The notes under the pieces are model-generated. The model had not been told where the DNA came from and ran no database searches. It saw only the letters and a program-made list of their open reading frames with translations. Shown here piece after piece: positions 38,646 through 40,772 of a stretch of DNA of 64,000 bases. The DNA is from Anaerolineae bacterium (GTDB lineage: Bacteria > Chloroflexota > Anaerolineae > Aggregatilineales > Phototrophicaceae), in contig JAJEBK010000030.1 in assembly GCA_022823945.1 (NCBI GenBank), forward strand, positions 1-64,000. The letters are read 5' to 3'. The stretch's first letter is position 1. The number at the start of each line of letters is the position of its first letter. The position numbers and the translations under genes were made by a program.

Positions 38646-39080
38646 CTATAGTCGCTGGCTCGCGTGATAGACTACGGCATTGATTAGCTCGGTCAGCCCG
38701 CGCCCTTTGCCCATAGATATGTCGCGCCCAAAGAACGAAAACACGACATCGCCGGTGATGTTCGCCACCTGCTCCAACGGCGCGCCAGAACAAGCCTCGT
38801 CCAGGATGGCGCTCATGGCCATGGCAGAAAGCCCCTGCGGGTTCAGCACATCAAAGTAATAATCCAGCCGGCCATCGGGACGGTCGACCGCCCAAACGAA
38901 AGCCTCGGACTCGCAGCCGATGACGCGATGCGCCTCGTCGTAGGGCTTGGTGGCGACCGCAGACGGCACCGGCTGGAAGCTGTCGGCGATATCAATGAGG
39001 AAGTCGGCGCGCTCTTCACGCGTCGTGATGAAACCGAAGTCGTCCAGGTATTCTTGCAGTTTCGGCGGGAGGGCGGACAT
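38646..39080 (-). CDS. SufE family sulfur acceptor protein
   Basis: 144 residues from the ATG at 39080. LPPKLQEYLDDFGFI and the conserved Cys in VIGCESEAFVWAV (the SufE persulfide-accepting Cys, usually VxGCxSxVW) identify the family, with GLTELINAVVYHA near the end matching the R-x-x-G-x-x-x-M/L helix. SufE takes persulfide sulfur from a cysteine desulfurase and passes it to the Fe-S scaffold. It is downstream of a rhodanese on the same strand with repeat copy D between them. No sufS or sufBCD is in the window. Confidence 0.88.
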   Translation of the reverse strand: MSALPPKLQEYLDDFGFITTREERADFLIDIADSFQPVPSAVATKPYDEAHRVIGCESEAFVWAVDRPDGRLDYYFDVLNPQGLSAMAMSAILDEACSGAPLEQVANITGDVVFSFFGRDISMGKGRGLTELINAVVYHASQRL

Positions 39081-39114
39081 GTTCGACCGTTGGCAATTTT
39101 TGATCAATTCAATC

Positions 39115-39250
39115 CCTCGCGGTCCCCCCACCGCAATAGGGGGAGGGATGTGCCGTGATTTCGCAAAGGAATAGTCGTATCCGTTCGCAACTCATTCCGG
39201 CTTTGTCTCTCCCTTCCCTGATGCTTCGAGGAGGGGCCGGGGATGGGGTA
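39115..39250. repeat. Dispersed G/C-rich palindromic intergenic element, copy D
   Basis: CCCCCCACCGCAATAGGGGG at its left and CTCCCTTCCCTGATGCTTCG with GAGGAGGGGCCGGGGATGGGG at its right. The GGCCGGGGATGGGG word is shared with copy A. It sits inside the rhodanese-sufE operon, just after the rhodanese stop, and might affect expression of sufE. Confidence 0.6.
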
Positions 39251-39252
39251 GG

Positions 39253-40113
39253 CTATTTCTCGATCGGCAAGCCCACGCTGTTGCCCCATTCTGTCCACGA
39301 GCCGTCATAATTGCGCACATCGCCAAAGCCCAGCAGGTTTGTCAACACAAACCAGGTGTGGCTGCTGCGCTCACCGATGCGGCAATAGGCGACAGTCGGC
39401 TCTTCGGGGTTCAAGCCGAGTTCGTCCAGGTAGATGGCGCGCAGGTCGGCGGCATTCTTGAAAGTGCCGTCTTCGTTGGCGGCGCGCGACCAGGGGCAGC
39501 TGCTTGCGCCGGGAATATGCCCGCCACGCACCGCGCCTTCTTGCGGATAACCTGGCATGTGCAGCGTTTCGCCGCTGAATTCGCCTGGGCTGCGCACATC
39601 GACCAGTTGACCGCCCGCTTCAATATGCTGCAAGACGCCGTCGCGGAAAGCGCGGATCTGGCTGTCATCTCGTGCGGGCGCATCGTAGCTGCTCGGCGCG
39701 ATCACTGGCTTCTCGCGGGTGAGCTCGCGGCCTTCTTCCGCCCACTTCAGCCGTCCACCATCCATGATCTTGGCATTGGTATGCCCAAAAAGCTCGAAAA
39801 CCCATAGCGCATAGGTCGCCCACCAGTTGCTCTTGTCGCCGTAAAAGATGACGGTCGTTGCGGGGCTGATGCCGATGCGGCTGGCCAACGCGGCGAAGCC
39901 CGCTTTGTCCAGGTAGTCGCGGCGCAGCGGGTCGTTGAGATCTTTCACCCAATCGACCTCGACAGCGCCAGGGATATGCCCGCTGGGGTAAAGCAGGGGA
40001 TCTTCGTTCGATTCGATGATGCGCACATGCTCATCGGTCAGGTGCGCGGCGACCCAGTCTGTGCTAACCAGTTTGTCGGCATTGGCATAGCCGCGGCTCT
40101 TGATGTCACTCAT
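39253..40113 (-). CDS. Tandem-rhodanese sulfurtransferase (thiosulfate/3-mercaptopyruvate type)
   Basis: 286 residues; AAGGAG 8 bases before the ATG. Two rhodanese domains: the N-terminal, inactive one (~15-125) has [11 protein letters not shown] and [17 protein letters not shown], and the catalytic one (~160-280) has [12 protein letters not shown] and the active-site loop CRIGERS, with the persulfide-carrying Cys. CRxGxRS/E-type loops are typical of thiosulfate sulfurtransferases of the SseA/CysA2 type. It moves sulfane sulfur to thiols or cyanide. A leader peptide with three consecutive Cys codons and a terminator precede it, and a SufE gene follows. Confidence 0.92.
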
Positions 40114-40177
40114 GGTCTTTGCTCCTTGGCACTATTGTCTGATTGATCGACTTTCGCTCTTTGGATGTAGCCTGCAC

Positions 40178-40205
40178 AAAAAAAGCCAACCGCCCTGGGT
40201 TGACT
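40178..40205 (-). terminator. Candidate attenuator terminator in front of the sulfurtransferase gene
   Basis: Minus-strand AGTCAACC-CAGGGC-GGTTGGCT forms an 8-bp stem with one U-G pair, followed by seven T. It lies between the polycysteine leader stop (40252) and the sulfurtransferase ATG (40113), where a simple operon would not need a terminator. Confidence 0.8.
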
Positions 40206-40251
40206 CTTTGCTGCTCGACCAGCGTACATACGCTTCAACGCGCACACCCGC

Positions 40252-40314
40252 CTAGCAGCCGGCGCTCCAACAACAGCAGTTGATATGCGTTTGACTTTCA
40301 AATGATTCGCGCAT
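40252..40314 (-). CDS. Polycysteine leader peptide (20 residues), leaderless
   Basis: The frame reads M-R-E-S-F-E-S-Q-T-H-I-N-C-C-C-W-S-A-G-C then TAG. Three consecutive Cys codons (TGC TGT TGT) at positions 13-15 and a fourth as the last codon. The ATG coincides with the predicted transcription start (promoter at 40321-40349), so there is no 5' UTR and no ribosome-binding site. Leaderless polycysteine short ORFs acting as cysteine-responsive attenuators have been reported in mycobacteria. By analogy, ribosome stalling at the Cys codons when cysteine is low would relieve the terminator at 40178. That mechanism is inferred here. Confidence 0.78.
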   Translation of the reverse strand: MRESFESQTHINCCCWSAGC

Positions 40315-40320
40315 GATGAA

Positions 40321-40349
40321 AGGATAGCACAGCAGCAGACGCAGTTCAA
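40321..40349 (-). promoter_or_regulatory. Promoter placing the start site at the leader ATG
   Basis: On the minus strand TTGAAC (40349-40344), a 17-base spacer, TATCCT (40326-40321), then six bases to the ATG at 40314. Standard spacing puts +1 on the A of ATG. Confidence 0.65.
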
Positions 40350-40364
40350 GACCGGCTGGCGAGT

Positions 40365-40772
40365 CTATGGCGATTCATACACATCGGGCGGGAACTCGAT
40401 GTCCCCATTCAAGTCGTCCATGTGCAGTCGACAATGCTCCAACCGCAGGGACATGTGGATCCCCCGCGGCAGCAACACATCGAATCTGCCGCGCCCGATG
40501 CTGCCGACGATGGCTTTGCGCCGCGCGATGATGTAGACCCCGGCTTCGTCTTGATCTGTGGCGACTTGCCAGGCAAAGCTGCCGCGCAGTTCGATACTTG
40601 TCACGATGCGCGCTTCGTCATGCGGCTTCAGGTGGATATCGGCGTGCTCGGCGTTCAGAAAAAAGGTGTTGGGCGGCTCGACCTCCCACTGATACCGACG
40701 TTTATCTAGCGCCAGATCTCGCGCCGAGCTGATTAGTTTCAGCGCGCGCCACAGCCTGTCCAACTGCGCCAT
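40365..40772 (-). CDS. Hypothetical protein, 135 residues
   Basis: The ATG at 40772 shares its A with the TGA of the upstream aminotransferase gene (TGATG), indicating coupled translation. The protein is beta-rich with alternating strands (AEHADIHLKPHDEARIVTSIELRGSFAWQVATDQD, then GVYIIARRKAIVGSIGRGRFDVLLP), suggestive of an adhesin-like or DUF4097-like beta-sandwich. No signal peptide and no recognised motif. Function unknown. Confidence 0.6.
   Translation of the reverse strand: MAQLDRLWRALKLISSARDLALDKRRYQWEVEPPNTFFLNAEHADIHLKPHDEARIVTSIELRGSFAWQVATDQDEAGVYIIARRKAIVGSIGRGRFDVLLPRGIHMSLRLEHCRLHMDDLNGDIEFPPDVYESP

Follow-up and report, generated by a model that had tools for sequence, protein, structure and literature searches.

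The window, a 64-kb stretch of DNA, belongs to a genome of 3.51 Mb in 55 contigs (G000) whose genus appears to fall in the phylum Chloroflexota, class Anaerolineae. Its minus strand carries a rhodanese gene and a sufE-like gene, with a promoter, a short cysteine-rich ORF and an intrinsic terminator before them:

38646-39131 (-): SufE-like protein (PF02657, 36.8 bits)
39253-40113 (-): two-domain rhodanese of 286 aa, an SseA-type thiosulfate sulfurtransferase (PF00581; PDB matches)
40122-40127 (-): AAGGAG, Shine-Dalgarno sequence of the rhodanese gene, read directly
40178-40204 (-): intrinsic terminator GTCAACC-CAGGGC-GGTTGGC-T7, from direct reading and folding
40210-40259 (-): long hairpin GCUGCU-A-GGC-G-GGUGU...ACGCU-G-GUC-G-AGCAGC, -29.1 kcal/mol
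40246-40251 (-): GCGGGT directly 3' of the leader stop codon, at the place of the candidate antiterminator 5' half in 29 sister genomes
40252-40314 (-): leader peptide ORF MRESFESQTHINCCCWSAGC, with ATG at 40314-40312 and TAG at 40254-40252
40257-40255 (-): fourth Cys codon, codon 20 and the last of the leader ORF, read directly
40270-40278 (-): Cys codons 13-15 (TGC TGT TGT), the proposed sensor, read directly
40321-40329 (-): extended -10 element TGCTATCCT, with TG at -15/-14 and TATCCT at -12 to -7 if the A of the ATG is +1
40344-40349 (-): -35 element TTGAAC, read directly

A preliminary description of this DNA had picked out the promoter TTGAAC-17-TATCCT, a 20-codon ORF with three consecutive Cys codons, the terminator and AAGGAG, and direct reading of the window located all of these parts on the minus strand, base for base. 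The spacer between TTGAAC and TATCCT is 17 nt, and 6 nt separate TATCCT (40326-40321) from the leader ATG. The terminator core pairs GTCAACC (40204-40198) with GGTTGGC (40191-40185) over 7 bp and runs into T7 at 40184-40178; its stem reaches 12 bp in the fold when the A-U extension is counted. Folding of the leader region, which the preliminary description had suggested as a check, gave -14.1 kcal/mol and z -3.92 for the terminator and z -3.72 for the long hairpin.

For a chance count in the window, we collected ATG-started short ORFs (sORFs) of 10-40 aa on both strands, counting once per ATG. Two adjacent Cys codons (CC) occurred in 47 of these 857 sORFs, three (CCC) in 3, and a promoter of the same geometry in 2; the sole sORF combining CC with the promoter geometry was the sseA leader MRESFESQTHINCCCWSAGC. 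A search of region 39900-40600 against Rfam returned 0 matches at E up to 5, so the leader carries no match to a T-box or metabolite riboswitch. The leader peptide as query found no match in NCBIfam.

The rhodanese gene starts at ATG 40113-40111 (-). Its product matched 8k55 ('sulfur transferase', 388 bits) best in the PDB, then 1uar (372) and 3p3a (344), followed by 3hzu ('sseA', 341) and, lower, 3hwi (300) and 3aax (299). The last two we take to be M. tuberculosis CysA2, and the protein was named SseA type because the sseA structure 3hzu outranks them. The SufE-like ORF is listed from GTG 39131, though its translation more likely begins at an in-frame ATG, 39080. In each of the 32 same-genus loci that we examined, a sufE match lies directly after the rhodanese gene; among the named rhodanese loci this holds for 18 of 75. 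According to the available part of a report on M. tuberculosis, the SufE-like protein encoded by the neighbouring gene binds and activates SseA (PMC12375888); this SseA-Rv3284 (SufE) pair likewise consists of neighbouring sulfurtransferase and SufE-like genes with interacting products. The window pair is preceded by the putative attenuator, whereas the same part of that report does not mention a cysteine leader for SseA-Rv3284 (PMC12375888). A GNAT acetyltransferase gene (PF00583, 37851-38645, plus strand) lies between sufE and a gene for a Cys/Met-metabolism PLP enzyme (PF01053, 36818-38131). Because the GNAT gene intervenes on the opposite strand, the PLP enzyme is probably outside the sseA-sufE operon.

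Conservation of the leader and a candidate antiterminator in the genus

The rhodanese was present in 54 of 61 genomes searched, the window's own included, and we read its upstream region in all 34 same-genus genomes of this search. Every one of them has an ATG-started leader ORF of 19-20 codons with 2-4 adjacent Cys codons, ending 128-151 nt 5' of the rhodanese gene. CC is found in 34/34 and CCC or more in 29/34, with CC only in L004, L009, L014, L016 and L026, while most residues outside the Cys run diverge among the 34 leaders. All seven core terminator pairs are preserved in 34/34. The conserved Cys sORF that the preliminary description expected in relatives is thus present in all 34 same-genus genomes read, and none of them lacks the Cys codons or the terminator, a loss it had regarded as contrary to its reading.

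Relative to the A of the leader ATG, the 34 genomes all have TTG at -35 to -33, TG at -15/-14, TA at -12/-11 and T at -7, and none has a Shine-Dalgarno-like motif within 18 nt 5' of that ATG (0/34). This promoter geometry suggests that the ATG is the first base of the transcript, which would make the leader ORF leaderless. A pattern of promoter, ATG and TGTTGT was found in 21/21 genus genomes versus 0/13 others searched, and the reversed-pattern control gave 0. We also built a model of the element (R1) from the 34 genus sequences and applied it to the 61 genomes. At E up to 0.05 each of the 34 gave a single full-length match, and the 27 other genomes gave no full-length match, yielding terminator fragments at most. 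Weak full-length R1 matches on contigs C52 and C54 of the window genome (E 2.7 and 8.4) were set aside as noise.

Just 3' of the leader stop codon, GCGGG(U) is predicted to pair with (A)CCCGC in the terminator 5' arm and loop in 29/34 genomes, and this helix is degenerate in the window's own subclade (5/34). Outside that subclade, the strongest helix formed after the Cys codons with the terminator 5' arm or loop was (G)GCGGG(U):(A)CCCGC(C) or part of it, at stop+2 to +4, in 29/29. Over all 34 genomes, 87.7% of the cells of the GCGGG(U):(A)CCCGC helix are paired, compared with at most 42.6% for slid controls in which the helix was shifted by 1-3 columns. Two of its pairs changed on both sides, G-C to A-U in L032 and U-A to C-G in L015. 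Column shuffles matched these two changes in 8/500 cases and the covariation score in 20/500; they matched the percentage paired in 146/500, the cells changed on both sides in 111/500 and the further pair types in 308/500.

We assumed a ribosome footprint reaching 12 nt past the first base of the A-site codon. Coverage then ends at codon 17-19 when Cys codon 1-3 of the run is in the A site, and a ribosome at the leader stop covers GCGGGU. RNA left free under the stalled ribosome had a mean z of -1.73 in the 29 species (27/29 below -1), versus 0.0 for RNA left free when the ribosome is at the stop. The 5' arm paired with upstream RNA at 0.73 in these species compared to 0.51 in shuffles, with 10/29 at or below 0.05, and the helix strength of single sequences was at or below 0.05 in only 3/29. 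In ten of these species (L011, L017, L019-L023, L027, L028 and L032) the 5' arm was paired in the stop-state fold as well, at 0.65-0.87, which counts against a clean two-state picture. The case for the antiterminator stands on position and conservation, not on energy; by these, a helix that would exclude the terminator and be freed by the stall is predicted in 29/34 genomes. The preliminary description had found no antiterminator convincing by eye, which holds for the window copy, where the helix is degenerate, but not for the 29 sister genomes, where it is clear.

Cysteine-rich leaders at other genes and in other genera

Further leaders in the window genome were sought only at the cysK/M, PAPS reductase, SufS and ATP sulfurylase families. 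The one PAPS reductase match, cysH (PF01507, 166 bits), has two Cys-rich sORFs in tandem before it, MVTNAQKHAVIFSCAAACCCPMQGMPWPAVASC and MFVRSQVCLCCCCAPAGAAYPRLAARCCR, with a terminator after each. This series of two leaders and two terminators occupies L229:1039-1405 (G000:C15). Leader 1 has the promoter TTGACA-17-TAGGCT-6-ATG and leader 2 has AGGAG; in our own reading, the genes after cysH look like siroheme-synthesis genes. The tandem cysH leaders apparently constitute a double attenuator. Leader MTMPHRICCCPWHMTGA and a long-looped terminator stand before the gene that scored best as cysK/M-like (TIGR01136, 305 bits, under the cut-off of 344). In this stretch, L225:1264-1440 (G000:C31), the terminator has an 11-bp stem and a loop of ~37 nt (AAGTCAACTGG...CCAGTTGACTTTTTT). 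No Cys leader was seen by eye at ATP sulfurylase in the window genome, and no Cys-dense sORF with leader layout was noticed at the SufS-family loci L230-L232. As the same genome has Cys leaders at cysH and the cysK-like gene, the sseA-sufE leader is probably one member of a cysteine-attenuation regulon.

Within the genus, cysH was found in 33/34 and cysK in 32/34 genomes, and the 30 best loci of each, all from the genus, were fetched. At least two Cys-rich sORFs precede the gene in 30/30 best cysH loci and one in 30/30 best cysK loci (for example MKYPTCCCCCCRMR), and the longest Cys run is 3-6 in all 60. The loose sORF rule behind these leader counts (3 Cys in 8 codons, any start) also gave hits on the reverse strand, used as a control, in 1/30 cysH and 12/30 cysK regions. 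ATG-started sORFs with 4 or more Cys in 8 codons were found on the sense strand in 30/30 cysH and 29/30 cysK regions and on the reverse strand in 0/30 and 1/30, respectively; the rhodanese leader under the rule of 4 or more Cys in 8 codons gave 11/33 sense and 1/33 reverse. A scripted search placed a terminator after cysH leader 1 in 30/30 loci, after leader 2 in 18/30 and after the cysK leader in 27/30. At cysH leader 2, the coding segment after the Cys run (UUAUCCGAGGC) pairs with the terminator (GCUUCGGAUAA). This helix measures 7-12 bp in all 18 scored loci (of 30), with the best helix of L247 elsewhere, and lies beyond 95% of shuffles in 7/18. A helix standing out from shuffles was seen in 0/30 loci for cysH leader 1 and in 5/30 for cysK.

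The rhodanese was found in 129/154 genomes of the order. We read 94 rhodanese upstream regions outside the genus, comprising 93 of the 95 in the order list (G049 and G144 left out) plus G036. An sORF with 4 or more Cys in 8 codons was present on the sense strand in 16/94 and on the reverse strand in 0/94. These 16 Cys-dense leaders span 6 genera and 3 families; MCCACCCACMAP, VCMCPCGCC, RCCCCCHS and FCFVCVCLC are examples of their peptides, and all 16 have a terminator-like hairpin between sORF and gene, that of L164 with an interrupted T run. Among 26 hand-chosen leaders, a -35/-10 pair (loose pattern) put the ATG at or near +1 in 18, and a Shine-Dalgarno-like motif occurred in 3. An antiterminator in the other genera did not rise above chance (pairing 0.58 versus 0.54; mean z -0.55; 1/25 in the helix test).

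The best 80 of 581 named rhodanese loci were screened for 3 Cys in 7 codons with CC, at most 400 nt upstream, which gave a sense-strand sORF in 6/80 and a reverse-strand sORF in 3/80. The six sense-strand loci are L053 and L054 (the genus genomes G014 and G017), L056, L058, L062 and L066, of which L056 and L058 are Anaerolineae and have terminators. No actinobacterial title was among the sORF-positive loci in the best 80 of 581.

A proposed attenuator and its divergence in the window's subclade

We propose that the leader is very probably a ribosome-mediated transcription attenuator that senses the supply of cysteinyl-tRNA and controls the sseA-sufE operon. As in trp-type attenuators, the leader ORF holds a codon cluster for one amino acid and an intrinsic terminator stands before the first gene. 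Judging from the promoter geometry, transcription would start on the A of the leader ATG, where a 70S ribosome would initiate without a Shine-Dalgarno sequence. When cysteine is ample, a ribosome at the stop codon would mask the post-stop segment, the terminator would form and the operon would be off. When cysteine is low, the ribosome would stall at codons 13-15 with its footprint short of the stop codon, and the post-stop segment freed in this way would pair with the terminator 5' arm and loop, leaving the operon on. The preliminary description had already suggested a cysteine-codon leader attenuator in a phylum distant from mycobacteria, and the conserved Cys codons, promoter geometry and terminator, together with the cysH and cysK leaders, speak strongly for it.

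The window's own copy departs from this scheme. Five species, L001-L005, have rhodaneses 93-100% identical to the window's and have lost the loop CGC, so that GGGU:ACCC (4 bp) is left in L001-L003 and none of the helix in L004-L005. This subclade retains the sensor, promoter and terminator, and a long hairpin seems to have arisen whose 5' strand lies at the place of the antiterminator. The hairpin is also found in L002-L004; in L005 it is imperfect, the stall-state region has z -0.81 and the no-ribosome fold lacks it. Its 5' strand begins with codons 19-20 and the stop, and its foot adjoins the A-U extension of the terminator. Because the hairpin spares the terminator core, stalled-ribosome folds of the window's copy still form the terminator. 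RNA free under the stalled ribosome had a mean z of -2.06 in the subclade, compared with +0.5 under a ribosome at the stop. Mean pairing of the 5' arm in the stall state was 0.02 in the five species versus 0.42 in shuffles, and in L001-L003 the pairing in the stop state (0.47, 0.30 and 0.83) exceeded that in the stall state (0.00-0.09), the opposite of the model.

No alternative credible antiterminator common to all five subclade species was found; a helix lies beyond 95% of shuffles in 2/5, and the longest helices are at differing places. Neither short candidate named in the preliminary description survived. GTTGA near 40230, as GUUGA:UCAAC at stop+15/16, occurs in 2/5 members (L001 and L003 only) and lies within the hairpin loop. 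Pairing of the Cys codons with TCAAC, through GUUGG in Cys/Trp codons against UCAAC, is available in 4/5 but was rejected because a stalled ribosome would sit on these codons. The terminator 3' arm can also form 10 bp with GCCGGCUGCU (codons 18-20) in 5/5; this pairing was likewise discarded, since it depends on G-U pairs and faces competition from two far stronger hairpins.

We weighed other accounts of the leader and of its form in this subclade. The sORF might encode a functional Cys-rich micropeptide that binds metal or has a redox role and is merely co-transcribed, as the metallothionein-like look of some other-genus leaders (e.g., MCCACCCACMAP) might suggest, but the peptide is poorly conserved outside the Cys run even in the genus, a terminator lies 3' of the sORF, and the conserved companions are the non-coding post-stop segment and the terminator loop, making this account extremely improbable. 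A leader that senses some other slowing of Cys-codon decoding, such as oxidative or electrophile stress or metal poisoning of Cys-tRNA charging, would fit the ties of M. tuberculosis SseA and SufE to oxidative stress and redox balance described in the available part of PMC12375888. We judge it very unlikely, since the other leaders of this genome guard cysteine synthesis (cysH and the cysK-like gene).

Two further readings concern the window's own copy, and both are compatible with the general attenuator. The attenuator of the subclade may be decaying or locked, with its antiterminator eroded, a hairpin that only insulates the terminator and a low, constant readthrough whatever the cysteine supply. 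A helix cut to 4 bp in L001-L003 and missing from L004-L005, and a terminator left free in the stall-state fold, would agree with such decay. We nonetheless hold it to be unlikely, because the Cys codons, the ATG-at-+1 geometry and the terminator are retained in all five species, and a window hairpin so far stronger than shuffles (z -3.72) is not a product of decay. Otherwise, the copy may work through the long hairpin itself, which a ribosome at the stop codon would prevent and a stalled ribosome would allow; the hairpin behind RNA polymerase would then lower termination without base-pair competition, or act as a pause that times ribosome and polymerase. This reading draws on the position of the 5' strand (40259 on), which begins immediately beyond the footprint that we assume for stalling at Cys 15 but falls under a ribosome at the stop, and on the hairpin ending at the base of the terminator A-U extension. 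It is doubtful, however, in that the conservation comes from 5 species, L005 has an imperfect hairpin in a region that folds no better than shuffles, and no leader-peptide attenuator with such non-competing logic is known to us.

Relation to known leader peptides and significance

Cysteine-responsive attenuation in M. smegmatis was reportedly described by Canestrari in 2020, as cited by later papers. Cys leader peptides were predicted before cys operons in Mycobacterium, P. acnes and B. longum, with no conserved terminators in the portions of that paper available (Seliverstov 2005, PMC1262725), and Cys-rich leaderless sORFs upstream of cysA2, Rv0485 and nirA appear in the accessible text of Shell 2015 (PMC4633059). 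Translation attenuation is cited for the mycobacterial polycysteine sORFs in the available text of PMC13236596. The Chloroflexota leaders resemble these sORFs, as far as they are presented in the accessible part of PMC4633059, in having the ATG at the transcript 5' end (here predicted from promoter geometry), a Cys cluster in a short ORF, a position before sulfur-assimilation or sulfurtransferase genes and several operons per genome. Here, too, the ORF has neighbouring Cys codons in its second half and precedes sulfur genes, and the promoter geometry, with the extended -10 at -12 to -7 in 34/34 and no Shine-Dalgarno sequence, would place the ORF at the first transcript base.

The two systems differ in their terminators. 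Mycobacterium has no conserved terminator hairpin in the available text of PMC1262725, whereas the Chloroflexota leader has a terminator in 34/34 and a matching antiterminator in 29/34. The mycobacterial arrangement, as far as the available sources describe it, combines the absence of an intrinsic terminator with control at the translation of the next gene, and is not what is found here. The target here is sseA-sufE in the phylum Chloroflexota, compared to cysA2 in mycobacteria, and the likeness is one of layout. The Cys leaders of P. acnes and B. longum (cbs) likewise lie in short ORFs that precede sulfur genes and have runs of Cys codons close to the stop (PMC1262725), but belong to Actinobacteria and have no terminator described in the available part of that paper (PMC1262725).

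Terminator-equipped leaders are known from Streptomyces lividans, whose leaderless LeuL2, TrpL1 and IlvL have Rho-independent terminators in the accessible text of PMC8079986. Trp/his/leu-type attenuators, including these (PMC8079986, as far as available), share with the present leader the codons of the sensed amino acid, a U-tract terminator and, in 29/34 genomes, a competing antiterminator. Unlike them, the present leader is proposed to sense cysteine, has the antiterminator 5' half directly after the stop, lacks most of the helix in the window's own copy and has tandem counterparts at cysH. A separate observation concerns the S. lividans metNIQ leader MSTTSDRTPATEATTTPGARCMCRRMCAF, described as methionine-dependent in the available part of PMC8079986; it contains CMCRRMC and may be a leader for cysteine.

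A literature search for cysteine-related leader peptides or attenuation in Chloroflexi, with most subscription papers outside its reach, found no report of such a system. The leader unites trp-type logic with a polycysteine sORF of mycobacterial kind, but is equipped with a terminator, and the switch of the window lineage is possibly novel. We offer a bolder view only tentatively, as on balance it is improbable: the window lineage would have been rewired, trading an overlapping antiterminator for a long hairpin that directly abuts the terminator, so that ribosome position would control termination without pairing competition, inside a Chloroflexota polycysteine-leader regulon (sseA-sufE, cysK and cysH, the last with two successive attenuators) that evolved apart from the mycobacterial one.

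These data point to leader peptides as a means of cysteine control in a phylum where we found none reported, with a terminator-based logic unlike the mycobacterial description. Several operons of one genome are involved, with tandem units at cysH, and leaders this short (14 codons and up) are easily missed by gene finders. The pairing of a thiosulfate sulfurtransferase with SufE suggests that cells short of cysteine may switch on a sulfane sulfur route to the Fe-S machinery. The genus would form a natural series in which the sensor was kept while the switch changed, so that the evolution of attenuator logic becomes testable.
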